In this document: positions 55,944-64,000 of the stretch, piece after piece
How the letters are laid out: each line of letters starts with the position of its first letter
Numbering within the stretch: position 1 is the stretch's first letter
From: Dyella sp. RRB7
GTDB taxonomy: Bacteria > Pseudomonadota > Gammaproteobacteria > Xanthomonadales > Rhodanobacteraceae
Assembly: GCF_022761115.1 (NCBI RefSeq)
Contig: NZ_JAKWJS010000001.1
Location: 1,302,001-1,366,000, forward strand
Direction: 5' to 3'
DNA length: 64,000 nucleotides
The notes under the pieces: model-generated
Told to the model about the DNA's origin: nothing
Database searches by the model: none
The model's input: the letters and a program-made list of their open reading frames with translations, nothing else
Made by a program: the position numbers and the translations under genes

Positions 55944-56384
55944 ATGGCCATCGATCTCAAGACACTCTCCCCGAAAGAACTTCAGGCACTCATCGCCAGC
56001 GCCAGCGCGCAGATGCACGAGGCGCATGCCGCGCAAATCCAGACGGTCAGGCAGAAGATCGAGACCCTGCTCAGCAGCAGCGGCCTCACGCTGGAAGACA
56101 TCTATCCGTCCCTCCGCAAAAAGGCCGGAGCCAGGAAAAGTGCCGCAGGCTCGGTGGCTCCCAAATATCGCAACCCCGCTGATCCCTCGCAAACCTGGTC
56201 CGGCCGCGGCCGCCAGCCGGCCTGGTTCGCCGCCGCCCTCAAGCGCCGCGGCGTGACCGAAGACAGCCTGCTCATCGACAGTGCATCGAGCCCGGCCAAG
56301 GTCTCCAAGACCGCCAAGAAGGCATCCAGGAAGCGCGTGGCCAAGCGCGCGGTCAAAAAGGCCGTAGCAAAGAAAAAGGCCTAA
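55944..56384 (+). CDS. H-NS histone-family protein with basic C-terminal tail
   Basis: A 146-residue nucleoid protein. It has an N-terminal oligomerisation helix (LSPKELQALIASASAQMHEA) and the H-NS DNA-binding core (YRNPADPSQTWSGRGRQPAW, with the AT-hook-like GRGRQP, about 74-93). The last 36 residues are almost only Lys, Ala, Arg, Ser and Val (KTAKKASRKRVAKRAVKKAV), like a histone H1 tail. H-NS proteins silence AT-rich, often foreign, DNA. The tail is an addition to the usual fold and is discussed below. Confidence 0.9.
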   Translation: MAIDLKTLSPKELQALIASASAQMHEAHAAQIQTVRQKIETLLSSSGLTLEDIYPSLRKKAGARKSAAGSVAPKYRNPADPSQTWSGRGRQPAWFAAALKRRGVTEDSLLIDSASSPAKVSKTAKKASRKRVAKRAVKKAVAKKKA

Positions 56385-56421: not shown

Positions 56422-56763
56422 CTAGTAGCCGATCAACACTGCCGGCGTGGGAAATGCCGCGCCGGCAAACCAGCGGTCACGCTCATCCCGGCAGCCCGGG
56501 CTGCCCATGGTGAATTTGCGACAGATCGCAGGGCGCTGGTCGTAGATGGTGCAGCGTGACGTATTGGGGTCCACCGCGGCACACCAGCCATCTTCGCCCT
56601 TGGCCAGGGTCTCCATGCCATGAGTGTGGCGATCGATGAGCCAGGCTGGCACTTGGTCGTCGGGCATCAGTACGACGGTGAGTCGGCAACATACCGCCTC
56701 GCAATCACTGCAGCTGACGGAGGGGTTGACGCTCTCGGCGTACGGATCGGGGGATATGTTCAC
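56422..56763 (-). CDS. YkgJ-family cysteine-cluster protein
   Basis: A 113-residue protein with the YkgJ metal-binding cysteine pattern: SCSDCEAVCCRL, GWCAAVD, SRCTIYDQRPAICRKF and GSPGC. Zinc or an iron-sulfur cluster is proposed for the family; the role is unknown. The start is a GTG at 56763 without a clear ribosome site. Confidence 0.82.
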   Translation of the reverse strand: MNISPDPYAESVNPSVSCSDCEAVCCRLTVVLMPDDQVPAWLIDRHTHGMETLAKGEDGWCAAVDPNTSRCTIYDQRPAICRKFTMGSPGCRDERDRWFAGAAFPTPAVLIGY

Positions 56764-57745: not shown

Positions 57746-58429
57746 TCAGAGTTGCGCAGCGACTTGTTGCGCGGTTGCCTTGGCCGATCCGGGGTTTTGG
57801 CCGGTGACCAGGTGTCCGTCAACCACTACCTTGGGCATAAACGGAAGTGGGGCTTTTTCGTAGAGGGCACCGCGGTCTTTCATTGCTTGCTCGGCGTTGT
57901 AGGGCACGTCCTTCGCCACGCCCGCCAGCACTTCTTCGGACCAGGCATAACCGGTGAGACGACGACCGGCCACCAGTAAACGACCATCCGACAAGCGGGT
58001 GTTGAGCAACCCGCAGTAGCCGTGGCACACCGACGACACCACGCCACCGCGCTCATAGATGTCGCGGGTGATTCGCTGCAACCCTGGGTCGTCTGGGAAG
58101 TCCCACATGACGCCGTGTCCACCGGTGAAATAGATAGCGTCGAAGTCCGTGGGATCGACATCTTCGGGCCGAGCCGTGGTCTTCAGCCATGCCTGCTTTT
58201 GCGGGTCGGCCAACCACTGCTTTACGGATTGATCGGCCAGGGGCCATTTCAGCGACCTCGGCTCCAGCGGCGAAAAGCCACCCCGCGGACTGACCAGTTG
58301 CTGCTCAAATCCCTTTTCCGCAAATACGTGGTAGGCGTGTGTCAGCTCGGACAGCCATAGACCTGTCAGATGCCGCGGGTTGTCGTAGTGGGACACGTTG
58401 GTGACGACATGGAGGATGCGCTTGGTCAT
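57746..58429 (-). CDS. DJ-1/PfpI-family protein, Hsp31/glyoxalase III-like
   Basis: A 227-residue class-1 amidotransferase-like protein with the nucleophile elbow intact (VVSSVCHGYCGLL, Cys about 129) and FTGGHGVMWDFPDD before it. This resembles the Hsp31/HchA-like group that removes methylglyoxal or repairs glycated groups. The ATG at 58429 starts the family homology. It is the last of three genes transcribed together behind an acetoacetate decarboxylase-like and an aldehyde dehydrogenase gene, with an 80-base spacing. Confidence 0.87.
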   Translation of the reverse strand: MTKRILHVVTNVSHYDNPRHLTGLWLSELTHAYHVFAEKGFEQQLVSPRGGFSPLEPRSLKWPLADQSVKQWLADPQKQAWLKTTARPEDVDPTDFDAIYFTGGHGVMWDFPDDPGLQRITRDIYERGGVVSSVCHGYCGLLNTRLSDGRLLVAGRRLTGYAWSEEVLAGVAKDVPYNAEQAMKDRGALYEKAPLPFMPKVVVDGHLVTGQNPGSAKATAQQVAAQL

Positions 58430-58509: not shown

Positions 58510-59991
58510 TCACGCGCTTTGATGCACTCCGGGCGCGCGTGCCTTGGGCGAGGAGGCGCGTTTGCCCCTGAGGGTCGCAGCCAGTGCCAGGTCAACCAAC
58601 CTTCCAAACGGTGCGCGTAACAAGCTGGGCAGGTTCCATTGCCCTTGGACAAACACGCCCTTGGCATGGCTCATCGTGCGGAACCCTTCGATGCCGTGAT
58701 AAGCACCCATGCCACTCGGGCCCACGCCCCCAAAAGGCAAGTCATCCTGGGCCACGTGCATCATCGTGTTGTTGATACCGACGTTACCCGACGTCGTGCG
58801 CGCCAGAAGCTTATTGCATTCCGCGTCCCTGCTCCCGAAGTAGTAGAGCGCCAGAGGACGGGGGCGGGCGTTGATGAAATCGATGACCTCATCCATGGTG
58901 CGATAGCTGCGCACCGGCAGGATGGGACCAAAGATTTCTTCCTGCATGACGGCCAGGTCGTCGCGCGCACCTACCACCAGCGTGGGAGCCATGGTGCGGA
59001 TGCGGCGAGTGGCGTGCTCCGGATGTACGCCCACTTCCAGTACGCGCCCTCCTTTCTGCCGGGCATCTCCAAGAAGGCCTTTCAGGCGATCGTAATGACC
59101 GCTGCTGACGATGGAGCTGTAGTCGACGCTGGTCGGTCCCTCTGGATAGGCGGCACGCACGGCCACGTCGAACTGCTTGACGAAGGCGTCCACGTCGTCC
59201 TCGTGGACCAGCGCATAGTCCGGCGCCACACAGGTCTGCCCGGCGTTGGCCAATTTGCCGAAGACGATGCTGCCGATCGCGCGATCGTTGACCTGGCCGC
59301 GCCCGACGACTACCGGGCTCTTGCCGCCCAGTTCCAGCGTCACAGGCACCAGATTGTCGCTGGCAGCCTTCATCACCTTGCGCCCTACCTGCGTGCTGCC
59401 GGTAAACAACAGGTGGTCGAATGCCAAAGCGCTGAAGGCGGCCCCCATGTCGGGGCCGCCGCGCACCACCGCCACCTCGTCAGCCGGGAAGGTTTGCGTC
59501 AGTAGATCCTTCAGCACGTCGCTGGTGCGGGGCGTGAGTTCGGAGGGCTTGAGCATGGCGCGATTGCCGGCAGCCAGCGCCGTGGCCAGCGGAATGAGCA
59601 CCAGGGAAACCGGGTAGTTCCACGGCGCCATGATGCCGATGATGCCCTTGGGCTGGTACTCCACGTACGCCCTGCCGCTGCGATAAGTGAGCGCCACATG
59701 TCGACGCTCGGTGCGCATGAAGCGGCGCAGATGCCTGGATAGATAGTCGATGGACTGGATGACGCCAACCAGTTCCATTATGGCTGTTTCATGGCGTGAG
59801 CGATGGCCGAAGTCGGCGCTCACTGCGTCTTCGAGCTGATTGCGATACGCCAGCACAGCGGCTCGCAGCCGCTGCAGTCGCTCCTTGCGCTGGTAAATCG
59901 TGGGGATGCCGTCGCGAAGGAATGCCGCGCGCTGCCTGGATAACAAGGATTCCATGTCGGTCGGCGGGCGATTGTCATAGTCAGCGGTCAT
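58510..59991 (-). CDS. Aldehyde dehydrogenase, coniferyl-aldehyde-dehydrogenase type
   Basis: A 493-residue NAD(P)-dependent aldehyde dehydrogenase. The motifs are GIMAPWNYPVSLVLIPL, TGSTQVGRKV, LELGGKSPVVVG (general base Glu) and NAGQTCVAPDY (catalytic Cys). The short N-terminus and hydrophobic/basic C-terminal tail match the group acting on coniferyl and long-chain aldehydes. The ATG at 59991 follows the decarboxylase-like gene by 40 bases. It probably oxidises a reactive aldehyde to the acid. Confidence 0.92.
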   Translation of the reverse strand: MTADYDNRPPTDMESLLSRQRAAFLRDGIPTIYQRKERLQRLRAAVLAYRNQLEDAVSADFGHRSRHETAIMELVGVIQSIDYLSRHLRRFMRTERRHVALTYRSGRAYVEYQPKGIIGIMAPWNYPVSLVLIPLATALAAGNRAMLKPSELTPRTSDVLKDLLTQTFPADEVAVVRGGPDMGAAFSALAFDHLLFTGSTQVGRKVMKAASDNLVPVTLELGGKSPVVVGRGQVNDRAIGSIVFGKLANAGQTCVAPDYALVHEDDVDAFVKQFDVAVRAAYPEGPTSVDYSSIVSSGHYDRLKGLLGDARQKGGRVLEVGVHPEHATRRIRTMAPTLVVGARDDLAVMQEEIFGPILPVRSYRTMDEVIDFINARPRPLALYYFGSRDAECNKLLARTTSGNVGINNTMMHVAQDDLPFGGVGPSGMGAYHGIEGFRTMSHAKGVFVQGQWNLPSLLRAPFGRLVDLALAATLRGKRASSPKARAPGVHQSA

Positions 59992-60031: not shown

Positions 60032-60955
60032 TCACAGGGCATCGAGCGCCTTCAGTGGCGTGGGCAGGTTCAACACCACCTGGGCGTCCTTCACCACGTC
60101 CAGTCGCAGGTAGCGGGAAGCGCCAAGGCCATCGAGCAGCTGGCTCATCGGGCCGCCGGCCCGGATCAGTTCCACCTTGCGCGGCAAGAGTACCTGCGCA
60201 AACGACAAGGTGTTGGTATTGACCACGGTCTGGTGCCAGGTGCCGTCCACCCGGTGCACCATGGTGGTGGTGCTCATGCGGGATTGCGGCACCACGTGGC
60301 GAAGCGCAGGGAGCGGAGCGCGCAACGACAGATCGGGCGTGCCATCGGGTCCAGCGATGCTTGCGCGGACCTCGGCATCCATGGACACATGCATGTCCTC
60401 GCGCCACTTCGGCAACTGATAGCCGTCCACGCCGCGAACACGCGCGATCTCGGAAGTGACGGGCAGTGCCAGCACGTGGGCAAAGAAACTGCGCCGCCGC
60501 GTAGCCGACAACAGTTGCGAAGCGGATGACGCCTTCGCACCCGGCCGGCGAATGACGATGGCGATGGACGCCTCGTCGTAGGGGTCGTTGTCGCACACGG
60601 CGTACGAGAAGAAGGTCAGGGCGATCAGGCCATAGCCCGGCAGAGCGCTCAATGGTTCAAGTGGCTCGGGCAGCATCGCGCGCAGCCGCGTGAGTGGCGC
60701 CTGCATCAGCAGCTGGACGTTGCTGGTCCGGTAGTAGAAGTTCGGTGCCCAGATCGAACCAACTCGGGAGGCGATCTGTTGTTTGGGAAACCGGCGAAAG
60801 AAGTCGACATTGCCAGCGGCAGGGTCACGCGCCACCTCATCGAGGTCTGGATTCATCCGGTAGCGATCGTAATAACCCCCGGCCAACACAGGAACCTCAT
60901 GGGGGCCAAACTGCGCCAGTGTGTACTGCTTTTCCACGTGCACCTCGGAGGGCAA
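60032..60955 (-). CDS. Acetoacetate decarboxylase-family protein
   Basis: A 307-residue protein of the ADC superfamily (MLPEPLEPLSALPGYGLIAL, DNDPYDEASIAIVIRRPG, VDGYQLPKWREDMHV, with the Lys of PKW in the place of the Schiff-base lysine). Many relatives are not decarboxylases, so only family membership is claimed. The start is a TTG at 60955 with GGGGAG seven bases upstream. A MerR-type promoter lies 31 bases before it. It is the first gene of the ADC-ALDH-DJ-1 operon. Confidence 0.8.
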   Translation of the reverse strand: MPSEVHVEKQYTLAQFGPHEVPVLAGGYYDRYRMNPDLDEVARDPAAGNVDFFRRFPKQQIASRVGSIWAPNFYYRTSNVQLLMQAPLTRLRAMLPEPLEPLSALPGYGLIALTFFSYAVCDNDPYDEASIAIVIRRPGAKASSASQLLSATRRRSFFAHVLALPVTSEIARVRGVDGYQLPKWREDMHVSMDAEVRASIAGPDGTPDLSLRAPLPALRHVVPQSRMSTTTMVHRVDGTWHQTVVNTNTLSFAQVLLPRKVELIRAGGPMSQLLDGLGASRYLRLDVVKDAQVVLNLPTPLKALDAL

Positions 60956-60985: not shown

Positions 60986-61016
60986 ACTCTAAGGTTCAAG
61001 TAAGCTTGAAGGTCAA
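60986..61016 (-). promoter_or_regulatory. MerR-type promoter/operator of the ADC-ALDH-DJ-1 operon
   Basis: Read on the - strand: -35 TTGACC (61016-61011), a 19-base spacer TTCAAGCTTACTTGAACCT containing the dyad TTCAAG-N4-CTTGAA, and -10 TAGAGT (60991-60986). Spacers of 19-20 bp are the mark of promoters activated by MerR-family twisting. It matches the promoters at 61521 and 62689. Confidence 0.75.
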
Positions 61017-61046
61017 GCCTGGCCGCTGGATGCTTCAGCCGACCGA

Positions 61047-61499
61047 TCAGCGGCTTGCCCCGGAAGGCTTGGCGGGTTTGGAAGGCTTCGCTTCCTCCGA
61101 GTGAAGACGTTCCAACACCCACTTGGCCCGATCCACGCAGCTAAGGTCCTCGGGACGGTTCTTGATGCTATTCAGGGCCGTGGCGAGCTGCTTTTTGGTC
61201 GCGGCAAGGCGCCGCTGCATGCCCTCGATCTCCGCGATCTTGTGTTCAATGGCCTCCACCAGTTCTTCGTGATGCCAGCCGCCCTTGGAGGCGACGGGCA
61301 ACAAGTGGCGGATCTCATCCAGTGTGAAGCCAGCGTTCTGCGCGCTGGCGATGATATCCAGGATGGCGAGGGCCTCGGGCGGGTAATCACGATAGCCGTT
61401 GGCCTTGCGATCCACGGCCTGGATCAGCCCGCTGGCCTCGTAAAAACGGATGCGTGAGGCCGTCAGGCCGCTTTGTTTGGCGAGATCACCAATCTTCAT
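61047..61499 (-). CDS. MerR-family transcriptional regulator
   Basis: A 150-residue MerR protein: winged helix-turn-helix (MKIGDLAKQSGLTASRIRFY ... GYRDYPPEALAILDIIASAQ) then a dimerisation helix (about 85-115) and a C-terminal loop with the only cysteine, Cys121 (PEDLSCVDRAKW). There is no multi-cysteine metal site, so a metal sensor is unlikely. A single cysteine recalls electrophile sensors such as NmlR/AdhR. It is surrounded by three promoters with MerR spacing. One lies between it and the divergent hydrolase gene, allowing autoregulation. Confidence 0.9.
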   Translation of the reverse strand: MKIGDLAKQSGLTASRIRFYEASGLIQAVDRKANGYRDYPPEALAILDIIASAQNAGFTLDEIRHLLPVASKGGWHHEELVEAIEHKIAEIEGMQRRLAATKKQLATALNSIKNRPEDLSCVDRAKWVLERLHSEEAKPSKPAKPSGASR

Positions 61500-61520
61500 G
61501 CGCTCGAACTCGAAAAGCCA

Positions 61521-61551
61521 TTGACCTTCAAGTTCACTTTAAGGCTACGCT
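61521..61551 (+). promoter_or_regulatory. MerR-type promoter/operator between merR-like gene and hydrolase gene
   Basis: TTGACC (61521-61526), a 19-base spacer with TTCAAG-N4-CTTTAA, and -10 TACGCT (61546-61551). It points to the hydrolase gene (ATG at 61779), giving a leader of about 220 bases, and lies 22 bases from the regulator's own start codon on the other strand. The leader shows no convincing ORF. Confidence 0.72.
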
Positions 61552-61778
61552 CCTCAGGCAGTCAAAGCAGGCTGCACCATGGTCCACCACTTACGCTCCC
61601 TGCGGCCAGCTCCATGCAGGCCGCCCCGCTTGTCCTTCGTCGGGTTTATCGGCGGAGGCGGAGTCGCATGGGCCAGAAATCCACGAGCCACTTTCCCAGG
61701 CCCTTGCTCCCCGTAACGGAAGGCCGTCGGAGAGCGTGTCACTGCTTCATAACCGAACTTCACTGAAGGAGACGCGAT

Positions 61779-62609
61779 ATGGGATACGTGACCACAAAGG
61801 ATGGCGTTGAGATCTTCTACAAAGACTGGGGCCCGAAGGACGCTCCGGTGATTTACTTCCATCACGGCTGGCCATTGAGCGCGGACGACTGGGATGCCCA
61901 GATGCTCTTTTTCCTGTCCAAGGGATTTCGCGTGGTGGCGCATGATCGGCGGGGACACGGGCGATCGAGCCAGGTGTGGGATGGCCACGATATGGATCAC
62001 TACGCCGACGACACGGCCGCGGTGGTCAAGCATCTGGGCGTCCAGAAGGCCGTACATGTGGGGCATTCCACGGGCGGTGGCGAGGTGATCCATTACGTCG
62101 CCCGGCACGGCGAGGACAAAGTGGCGAAGGCGGTGCTGATCAGCGCGGTGCCGCCTATCATGGTGAAGACGCCCAATAACCCCGGCGGCTTGGACAAGAA
62201 GGTGTTCGACGACTTGCAGGCGCAACTGGCCGCCAACCGCGCGCAGTTCTACTACGACGTGCCCGCCGGCCCGTTCTACGGCTACAACCGGCCCAACGCG
62301 AAACCCTCGCAGGGCATCATCTGGAACTGGTGGCGGCAGGGCATGATGGGGAGTGCCAAGGCGCATTACGACGGCATCGTCGCGTTCTCCCAGACGGACT
62401 TCACGGAGGACCTGAAGGGCACCACCATTCCGGTGCTCGTCATGCATGGCGATGACGACCAGATCGTCCCCTACGAGGACGCGGGCGTACTTTCGGCCAA
62501 GCTGGCTCGCAACAGCACGCTGAAGATCTACAAGGGCTTCCCTCACGGCATGCCCACCACCGAGGCCGACACCATCAACGCCGATCTGTTGGCGTTCATC
62601 AAGAGCTAG
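61779..62609 (+). CDS. Alpha/beta hydrolase, cofactor-free haloperoxidase type
   Basis: A 276-residue alpha/beta hydrolase of the non-heme chloroperoxidase/esterase group. It has FHHGWPLSADDWDAQ as oxyanion region, HDRRGHGRS, nucleophile Ser in VGHSTGGGEV, Asp in MHGDDDQIVPYE and His in GFPHGMPTT. These enzymes hydrolyse small esters and show perhydrolase activity in vitro. GAAGGAG precedes the ATG. The MerR-type promoter upstream links it to the neighbouring aldehyde genes. Confidence 0.93.
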   Translation: MGYVTTKDGVEIFYKDWGPKDAPVIYFHHGWPLSADDWDAQMLFFLSKGFRVVAHDRRGHGRSSQVWDGHDMDHYADDTAAVVKHLGVQKAVHVGHSTGGGEVIHYVARHGEDKVAKAVLISAVPPIMVKTPNNPGGLDKKVFDDLQAQLAANRAQFYYDVPAGPFYGYNRPNAKPSQGIIWNWWRQGMMGSAKAHYDGIVAFSQTDFTEDLKGTTIPVLVMHGDDDQIVPYEDAGVLSAKLARNSTLKIYKGFPHGMPTTEADTINADLLAFIKS

Positions 62610-62617
62610 CGTCCCTC

Positions 62618-62650
62618 ACGTTCCGGGGCGGTTCCGGCCGCCCCGAACGT
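62618..62650 (+). terminator. Probable terminator of the hydrolase gene
   Basis: ACGTTCCGGGGCGG (62618-62631) pairs with CCGCCCCGAACGT (62638-62650) with one bulged C. It lies directly behind the hydrolase stop codon. The following sequence has only a short T run, so strength is uncertain. Confidence 0.65.
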
Positions 62651-62688
62651 TTGCTGATGCAGAGGTACGGTCGACACCTCCGGCACAC

Positions 62689-62719
62689 TTGACCTTAAAG
62701 TTGACTTTAAGCTTAAGGT
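62689..62719 (+). promoter_or_regulatory. MerR-type promoter/operator of the Old Yellow Enzyme gene
   Basis: TTGACC (62689-62694), a 19-base spacer with the perfect dyad CTTAAAGT-TG-ACTTTAAG, and -10 TAAGGT (62714-62719), ending 29 bases before the ATG at 62749. It is the cleanest of the three related promoters. Confidence 0.8.
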
Positions 62720-62748: not shown

Positions 62749-64000
62749 ATGAAGCTGTTCGACAAGCTCACGCTCCCCAACGGTTCGACCCTTCCCAATC
62801 GCATCGCCAAGGCAGCGATGGAGGAAAACATGGCCGACGCCGATCAGGCCCCATCCGAATTCCTCATGCGCCTGTATCAGGCCTGGGCCGACGGTGGTGC
62901 GGGCCTGCTGATCACGGGCAATGTGATGGTCGATGGCCGCGCCATGACGGGGCCCGCGGGCGTCGTGCTGGAAGACGCCACCCATTTGGCCAAGTTCAAG
63001 CGCTGGGCGCAGATCAGTCGCTCGAAGGGAGCGCAAGCGTGGTTGCAGATCAATCACCCTGGCCGCCAGATGCAGGCCAACCTCGGCCAGCCGACGTGGG
63101 CGCCGTCCGCCGTGCCGCTGGAGCTCGGCAACATGTCCAAGCGCTTCAATGTGCCGCTCGCGATGACGGAAGCCATGATCGAAGAGGTGATCCATCGGTT
63201 CGCGCGCACCGCGAGCCTGGCCGAAGCCGCTGGCTTCACCGGCGTGGAAATCCACGCGGCGCACGGTTACCTGTTGAGCCAGTTCCTTTCGCCACTCATC
63301 AATCGCCGAACCGATCCATGGGGCGGCTCGTTGGAGAACCGCGCGCGCCTGTTGATCGAGATCGTCCGCGCAGTGCGGGCCGTGGTTTCGCCCGCCTTTG
63401 CAGTAGCCGTCAAGCTCAACTCCGCCGACTTTCAGCGCGGTGGCTTCAGCACGGATGACGCCAAGAAAGTCGTAATCCTGCTCAACGAGCTGGCCGTGGA
63501 TCTGGTCGAAATCTCAGGCGGCAGCTACGAAGCCCCTGCCATGCAAGGACAGGCGCGTGACGGCCGCACCCTGGCACGAGAGGCGTACTTCGTGGAGTTC
63601 GCGCGAGACATTCGAACGGTGGCAAAGATGCCGGTGATGGTGACCGGGGGCATCCGCCGTCGCCAAGTGGCTAACCAGGTGATTGAAAGTGGCGTGGATA
63701 TGGTCGGCATCGCCACGGCACTCGCCATTGATCCGTTTTTGCCGGCGGACTGGCGCATGGGCGCCGACAACACGCCGGAGTTGTCGCCCATCGCCTGGAA
63801 GAACAAGCCGCTGGCGTCCTTGGCGAACATGGCTGCCGTGCGCTATCAGATGCGCAAGATCAGCCACGGCAAGTCACCCAATCCGCGCGTATCGCCACTG
63901 CGCGCTCTTATTGAACAGCAGGCAGCCACCGCGTGGCGCACGCGGACGTATCGACAGTGGATTGTTCGACGTTCGAGGCAGATCCAACGCGCGTCTACCC
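62749..64000 (+). CDS. NADH:flavin oxidoreductase, Old Yellow Enzyme family (3' end outside window)
   Basis: An open frame of 417 codons without a stop, cut by the window end. The protein begins MKLFDKLTLPNGSTLPNRIA. It has the OYE pattern: INHPGRQ, EIHAAHGYLLSQFLSPLINR followed by TDPWGGSLENR, and the FMN-phosphate-binding MVTGGIRR and GIATALA. OYE enzymes reduce activated C=C bonds of enals, enones, maleimides and nitro compounds. Relatives of the single-domain form have about 410-430 residues, so it is nearly complete. A MerR-type promoter precedes it. Confidence 0.92.
   Translation, partial: MKLFDKLTLPNGSTLPNRIAKAAMEENMADADQAPSEFLMRLYQAWADGGAGLLITGNVMVDGRAMTGPAGVVLEDATHLAKFKRWAQISRSKGAQAWLQINHPGRQMQANLGQPTWAPSAVPLELGNMSKRFNVPLAMTEAMIEEVIHRFARTASLAEAAGFTGVEIHAAHGYLLSQFLSPLINRRTDPWGGSLENRARLLIEIVRAVRAVVSPAFAVAVKLNSADFQRGGFSTDDAKKVVILLNELAVDLVEISGGSYEAPAMQGQARDGRTLAREAYFVEFARDIRTVAKMPVMVTGGIRRRQVANQVIESGVDMVGIATALAIDPFLPADWRMGADNTPELSPIAWKNKPLASLANMAAVRYQMRKISHGKSPNPRVSPLRALIEQQAATAWRTRTYRQWIVRRSRQIQRAST

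Follow-up and report, generated by a model that had tools for sequence, protein, structure and literature searches.

Three near-identical MerR-type promoters were identified between positions 60986 and 62719 of a 64,000-nucleotide stretch of the Dyella sp. RRB7 genome (contig NZ_JAKWJS010000001.1, positions 1,302,001 to 1,366,000 of the forward strand; hereafter, the window), around a gene encoding a 150 aa MerR-family regulator with a single cysteine, Cys121 (61047..61499, minus strand). These sites are probably the operator-promoters of the regulator encoded between them, which would repress and then activate a carbonyl and enone detoxification regulon of three transcription units: a unit encoding an acetoacetate decarboxylase (ADC)-like protein, an aldehyde dehydrogenase (ALDH), and a DJ-1/PfpI-family protein; a gene for a haloperoxidase-like alpha/beta hydrolase; and a gene for an Old Yellow Enzyme (OYE)-family oxidoreductase. 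The claim for a regulon rests on phylogenetic footprinting, which argues that this is a real, conserved, and shared control circuit. The recurrence of the sites upstream of target genes, their co-occurrence with the regulator, sites before OYE and ADC genes unlinked to it, and the conserved cysteine all support the local regulon that a preliminary description of this DNA had proposed.

Promoter 1 (61016-60986, minus strand) consists of a -35 element TTGACC (61016-61011), the dyad-containing 19-bp spacer TTCAAGCTTACTTGAACCT, and a -10 element TAGAGT (60991-60986), and faces the ADC-ALDH-DJ-1 unit. Promoter 2 (61521-61551, plus strand; TTGACC-TTCAAGTTCACTTTAAGGC-TACGCT) faces the hydrolase gene, its low end lying 21 bp ahead of the start codon of the divergent merR gene, and promoter 3 (62689-62719, plus strand; TTGACC-TTAAAGTTGACTTTAAGCT-TAAGGT) faces the OYE gene; both have the same spacer length of 19 bp. 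All three 31-bp sites lie exactly where first described and read TTGACC, 19 bp with a TTNAAG-N4-CTTNAA dyad, and then TANNNT, and the gene positions agree that each is aimed at its own unit and that the single-cysteine merR-like gene lies amid them. A search of the window for TTGACCTTNAAGNNNACTTNAA with up to three mismatches returned six matches, three of them exact; the inexact ones are sites 2 and 3 read from the opposite strand and a match at 63398-63419. The mean number of matches in 100 dinucleotide shuffles of the window was 0.00. In the whole genome (4,079,393 bases, ≤2 mismatches), the only matches were the three sites and site 3 read backwards, and the reversed-pattern control gave none.

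Conservation of the sites was assessed in 91 loci (80 public, five plasmid, four from the order, one from the class, and the window's own; 1.21 Mb), the public ones being the best 80 of at least 562, picked by regulator similarity. The annotated plasmid loci, from Caballeronia, Paraburkholderia, Burkholderia, Roseateles, and Agrobacterium, encode a regulator 51–62% identical to that of the window, accompanied by some of the gene kinds seen here; a sixth plasmid locus had no annotation. Gene kinds across the 91 loci were OYE (61), ADC (43), hydrolase (36), DJ-1 (35), and ALDH (13), counting weak matches near 30% identity. The bare dyad TTNAAG-N4-CTTNAA, searched for without the -35 or -10 element, occurred in 84 perfect copies, 83 of which lay ≤350 bp upstream of merR or a regulon-family gene (i.e., OYE, haloperoxidase-like hydrolase, ADC, DJ-1-like, or ALDH), while the reversed pattern gave no perfect copy in these loci. 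With one mismatch allowed, 163 dyads were found (145 near such genes), as compared to 12 (five near) for the reversed control. After removal of 18 dyads that had no regulon-family gene inside 350 bp and of another 21 that had merR alone nearby, 124 could be oriented to a target other than merR: 61 to OYE, 28 to hydrolase, 20 to ADC, and 15 to DJ-1 genes. Conservation upstream of orthologous genes was thereby borne out for OYE, hydrolase, ADC, and DJ-1 genes in many genera; homologues of promoter 1, for example, precede ADC genes in loci L015–L017, L030–L033, L124, and others.

The core promoter elements recur around these dyads. TTGACC was matched in at least five of its six bases at 117 of the 124 oriented sites, and TANNNT followed at a spacing of 19 in 108 of these 117, the sole other spacing between 14 and 23 being a single case at 21. 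Among the 109 distinct 31-mers, the -35 element was good in 103 and TANNNT stood at 19 in 95, the latter count not being conditioned on the -35 element. The site consensus first proposed holds in general and needs amending in its details: the last -35 base is C in 88 sites, A in 29, and T in seven; the A after the central N3 is present in 81% of the 124 homologous sites; and the -10 element is TANNGT-like. Distances to the target are also constrained for OYE, with the dyad centre 44–50 nt from the start codon at 47 of the 61 assigned sites. At least one full promoter was found in 72 of the loci, at least two in 26, and at least three in eight; only OYE sites were present among the full promoters of 34 of the 72. 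MerR promoters are described as typically having spacers of 19–20 bp, which keep them almost silent until the DNA is distorted by the regulator bound to it (PMC9909328). At all three window sites the dyad lies within such a spacer, and the strict 19-bp spacing fits directly with the MerR distortion mechanism.

The regulator and its sites also co-occur across genomes. The regulator was found (E ≤ 1e-30) in five of 151 genomes of the order, and 31-bp promoters with no more than one mismatch were found in the same five; hits at two mismatches alone occurred in three further order genomes, a number equal to that for the reversed control. The OYE subfamily (E ≤ 1e-100) was present in four of the 151, all of them regulator carriers, and in the fifth carrier hydrolase and DJ-1 genes adjoin the regulator in place of OYE. 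Within the genus, four of 20 genomes carry the regulator (E ≤ 1e-20), and in 16–20-kb stretches from the other three carriers sites lie upstream of whichever OYE, hydrolase, or ADC genes are present. This patchy spread suggests that the module may be acquired, and lost again, as a whole. In the class, exact 31-bp promoters were found in two of 274 genomes, namely the window's own (G000) and G139, where the site lies between OYE and a divergent regulator that is 34% identical, keeps the cysteine, and failed the protein search at E ≤ 1e-15. With up to two mismatches, the 31-bp pattern hit nine of the 274 genomes, one of them (G105) with one mismatch, as compared to five for the control; a 22-bp pattern with ≤1 mismatch gave background only in unrelated class genomes (8 of 274 vs. 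7 for the reversed control, beyond the exact hits in G000 and G139).

Whole-genome scans of 18 regulator carriers gave sites with ≤1 mismatch in 17 of them and none for the control. An OYE, hydrolase, ADC, or DJ-1 gene was next downstream at 26 of 30 site loci, or at 23 of the 27 intended sites, as three rows (L163, L165, and L167) were scored on a better neighbouring site; at the other four loci the downstream gene encodes a short-chain dehydrogenase/reductase (SDR; L149) or a saccharopine-dehydrogenase-like protein (L156 and L161), or no target was assigned (L159). Two of these sites are unlinked to the regulator, one before an ADC gene on another contig (L155) and one before an OYE gene approximately 277 kb away (L160); there was no related MerR within 1.5 kb of either, with distance taken relative to the known regulator copy only. 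In L144 and L158 (G438:C1 and G448:C54), exact-match promoters precede an OYE gene that stands beside its own 36%-identical MerR; because these regulators are diverged and the promoters exact, the operator may predate the close subfamily.

Several observations weigh against this interpretation. Many of the public loci come from Pseudomonas and Burkholderiaceae, and, since the loci were also chosen by regulator similarity, the sites are not independent of one another. The signal weakens when two mismatches are allowed in the dyad (375 dyads, 188 near regulon-family genes or merR, vs. 227 and 56 for the control) and is lost at three (2014 and 356 vs. 1972 and 350). One dyad in the genus stretches has no -35 element, and a few dyads near carriers that lack this element look like chance. 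Four class genomes with regulators 36–42% identical to that of the window (E 6e-16 to 7e-19) have no promoter with ≤1 mismatch, and the same holds for one of the 18 carriers (G446). Part of the 39 left-out dyads also look like chance occurrences: six have fewer than four of six -35 bases, and some others have no -10 element. Ten proteins encoded downstream of left-out dyads were scanned; two were ADC-like (weak matches), three SDR/epimerase-like, one saccharopine-dehydrogenase-like, one a zinc-type alcohol dehydrogenase, and two other alpha/beta hydrolases, and one had no match. As to the signal, electrophile sensing would rest on gene content and one cysteine.

The regulator carries N-terminal MerR winged helix-turn-helix domains (PF13411, 58.7 bits, cut-off 21.6; PF09278, 53.8 bits, cut-off 25.4; PF00376, 47.8 bits, cut-off 28.2), and Pfam detected only MerR DNA-binding domains, with no separate ligand-binding domain, in its 150 residues. 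Of 105 aligned rows, 104 keep Cys121, and the one that does not is a second MerR of L099, a different MerR with 37% identity; 95 of 104 relatives have a single cysteine in the whole protein, including the L099 protein, whose cysteine sits elsewhere. The window regulator scored far under the cut-off of the NCBIfam equivalog models for CueR (76.9 bits, cut-off 147.4), MerR for mercury (71.0, cut-off 150.85), ZntR (62.1, cut-off 167.95), CadR-PbrR (57.5, cut-off 151.45), NmlR (51.2, cut-off 175), and SoxR (43.4, cut-off 116.9). For a broader alignment, comprising 38 members, these models matched as relatives only, with CueR best (E 4.3e-24), where the status relative to the cut-offs applies to the window protein only. 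Three Burkholderiaceae clusters contain an additional regulator from this subfamily, placed beside a DJ-1-like gene (L015:8989-9468, L016:7496-7966, and L017:8927-9397); these proteins are 40–49% identical to the window protein and keep Cys121, and the two regulators of each cluster may share one operator type.

The regulator is likely to repress its own gene. A candidate merR promoter was read from the sequence on the minus strand at 61537..61565, with TTGACT at 61565-61560, a 17-bp spacer, and TTAAAG at 61542-61537 over half of the dyad; because site 2 overlaps this candidate promoter, we propose that the regulator may limit its own synthesis. A dyad with no more than two mismatches was found within 150 bp of merR in 87 of 90 loci, and in 82 its centre falls 26–42 nt ahead of the merR start codon. 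In these 82 loci the merR -35 element is partly kept (second T in 70%, third G in 76%, exact TTGAC in 16 of 82).

The ADC-like gene downstream of promoter 1 (60032..60955, minus strand) has a listed TTG start at 60955, and the true start may be slightly further in. Relatives of its product are annotated as acetoacetate decarboxylase; since its PF06314 match (E 2.3e-4, 21.2 bits) falls below the gathering score of 29.8 and no PDB relative was found at E ≤ 0.1, it is labelled only as ADC-like. Pseudomonas ADC-like paralogs behind the same promoter type (L072:4584-5555, L063:7505-8512, and L097:7508-8515) have an apparent N-terminal signal peptide, as judged by eye, with the L072 protein alone having been scanned; these paralogs suggest a possible exported branch of the regulon. 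The next gene (58510..59991, minus strand) encodes a class-3-like ALDH, with structure matches to class-3 enzymes and a steroid aldehyde dehydrogenase, and the third (57746..58429, minus strand) encodes a DJ-1/PfpI-family protein whose solved-structure matches relate it to Hsp31/glyoxalase III. The hydrolase (61779..62609, plus strand) is near PDB 1zoi, an esterase, and 4dgq, a non-heme chloroperoxidase. The 227-nt gap between the site 2 -10 element and the hydrolase start (61552-61778) is long for a single gene and varies in length in relatives, and an alignment with three relatives revealed no obvious common element besides the promoter; as the dyad-to-start distance also varies (48–334 nt across 28 sites assigned to hydrolase genes), no leader element is claimed. 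The OYE-family NADH:flavin oxidoreductase gene (62749..64000, plus strand) runs beyond the window and encodes 425 aa in L005; its product carries an Oxidored_FMN domain (PF00724, 188.9 bits, cut-off 27) and is related, by structure matches, to 7fev and to the YqjM/NADPH-dehydrogenase types. At lower positions of the window lie an open reading frame of 146 aa (55944-56384), whose C-terminal part has a motif that we take to resemble an H-NS-type nucleoid protein, and a gene (56422-56763, minus strand) encoding a 113-aa CxxCxxCC putative zinc/iron-chelating domain protein (PF03692).

These observations suggest how the circuit might operate. At each promoter, a regulator dimer would bind the dyad inside the over-long 19-bp spacer and, without inducer, keep RNA polymerase inactive; with inducer, the DNA would be kinked so that the -35 and -10 elements become aligned, and the three units would be switched on together. 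Binding, activation by distortion, and autoregulation are steps that we infer. The inducer may be a reactive carbonyl, enone, or quinone acting by modification of Cys121, which lies near the C-terminus, and the enzymes then produced would reduce, oxidise, or hydrolyse such compounds. These compounds appear the most likely signal because the gene set (a reductase, a dehydrogenase, a DJ-1/glyoxalase-like protein, and a hydrolase) is combined with a single conserved thiol, and electrophile sensing by Cys121 is the reading we favour by a small measure. E. coli NemA is an OYE-family enzyme, and the NemR-NemA pair provides a functional parallel from another regulator family. NemR is described as a cysteine-based electrophile sensor controlling the N-ethylmaleimide reductase NemA and a glyoxalase (PMC7464077); it is, however, a TetR-family repressor with six cysteines, and no common descent is implied.

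Within the MerR family, a cysteine-dependent response occurs in NmlR and AdhR. AdhR acts at an operator of the CTTAAAG-N4-CTTTAAG repeat type, and YraA resembles DJ-1/PfpI proteins. NmlR/AdhR proteins of Haemophilus influenzae, Neisseria, and Bacillus subtilis are characterised in PMC4776306 by their cysteine-dependent carbonyl response; as described there, Neisseria and Haemophilus NmlR have a divergent target gene, as found here, and B. subtilis AdhR raises the expression of adhA, yraC, and yraA. While these proteins have a conserved cysteine at position 52/54 according to the same source (PMC4776306), the window regulator has only Cys121 and none at that position, and its targets are OYE, hydrolase, ADC, ALDH, and DJ-1 genes as opposed to AdhC/EstD. 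Membership in the NmlR/AdhR group was rejected on the NmlR score given above and the missing Cys52/54.

A possible but clearly less probable alternative keeps the same regulon and promoter mechanism and takes the inducer to be a specific catabolic substrate or signal (e.g., an aromatic aldehyde or an oxylipin- or terpenoid-like enone) bound non-covalently, with Cys121 having a structural role. The enzyme set (OYE, esterase/hydrolase, ADC-like protein, and class-3 ALDH, with SDR and saccharopine-dehydrogenase-like proteins in relatives) could form a peripheral degradative route, and relatives of the ALDH are annotated as coniferyl aldehyde dehydrogenase; against this alternative, gene content varies between loci, many having OYE sites only, as would be expected of a detoxification set more than of an ordered pathway, and the 150-aa protein shows no separate ligand-binding domain in Pfam. 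A Shewanella CalR regulon has been predicted computationally, with CalR as the regulator of the coniferyl aldehyde dehydrogenase gene calB (PMC3223726); calB is the target named there, as opposed to the several gene kinds found here.

That the regulator is instead a metal sensor like CueR, MerR, CadR, or ZntR is improbable. CueR provides the best NCBIfam and PDB matches, over residues 1-112, and its DNA-distortion mechanism is presumably common to the window regulator. Its operator differs from the one described here, and Cys112 and Cys120 are its C-terminal metal-binding cysteines. The window regulator, unlike CueR, has no paired C-terminal cysteines, the residue aligned to Cys112 being isoleucine; no copper genes were seen beside it, and, in an incomplete survey, no identified target gene resembled a metal-export or mercury gene. 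Metal sensing was rejected on the model scores, all far under cut-off, and on the cysteine positions.

Still less probable is control of the sites by a different regulator, with SoxR as the main candidate; its MerR-type operator (CCTCAAGTTAACTTGAGG, with an AAG-N4-CTT core) has a similar core and dyad spacing. The outer position held by C in the SoxR box is occupied by T at 118 of the 124 sites, no protein of the genome exceeds the SoxR cut-off (best 67.8 vs. 116.9 bits), and the sites track the MerR-like regulator, lying at the near-fixed distance from merR given above. The SoxR Fe-S cluster needs four cysteines; because the window regulator has a single one, it would have no cysteine-ligated cluster site. 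SoxR control was rejected on scores and cysteine positions. A chance origin, or repeated DNA without function, had nothing in its favour and is negligibly probable given the shuffles, the genome-wide uniqueness, and the cross-species conservation before non-homologous genes, in agreement with the preliminary description.

The class of mechanism is an established one. The regulator subfamily, the operator, and the regulon appear to be uncharacterised; no description of the regulon was found in searches of open-access papers, most subscription journals lying outside this coverage. Our broadest proposal, which we regard as evenly balanced, is that a widespread proteobacterial MerR subfamily uses a new type of switch, in which a single C-terminal thiol per protomer (Cys121), with no metal, Fe-S cluster, or N-terminal NmlR cysteine, would be alkylated or oxidised by reactive carbonyls or enones and so induce a detoxification regulon centred on OYE. 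What Old Yellow Enzymes do physiologically is described as incompletely resolved (PMC5891007). The regulator-operator pair recurs in Pseudomonas, Burkholderiaceae, Dyella-like bacteria, Bradyrhizobium, and others, and as a conserved pair it offers a direct handle on when Old Yellow Enzymes are produced. It could also serve as a whole-cell sensor of carbonyls or enones, and, as a simple single-thiol MerR, the regulator makes ligand sensing addressable with one substitution.

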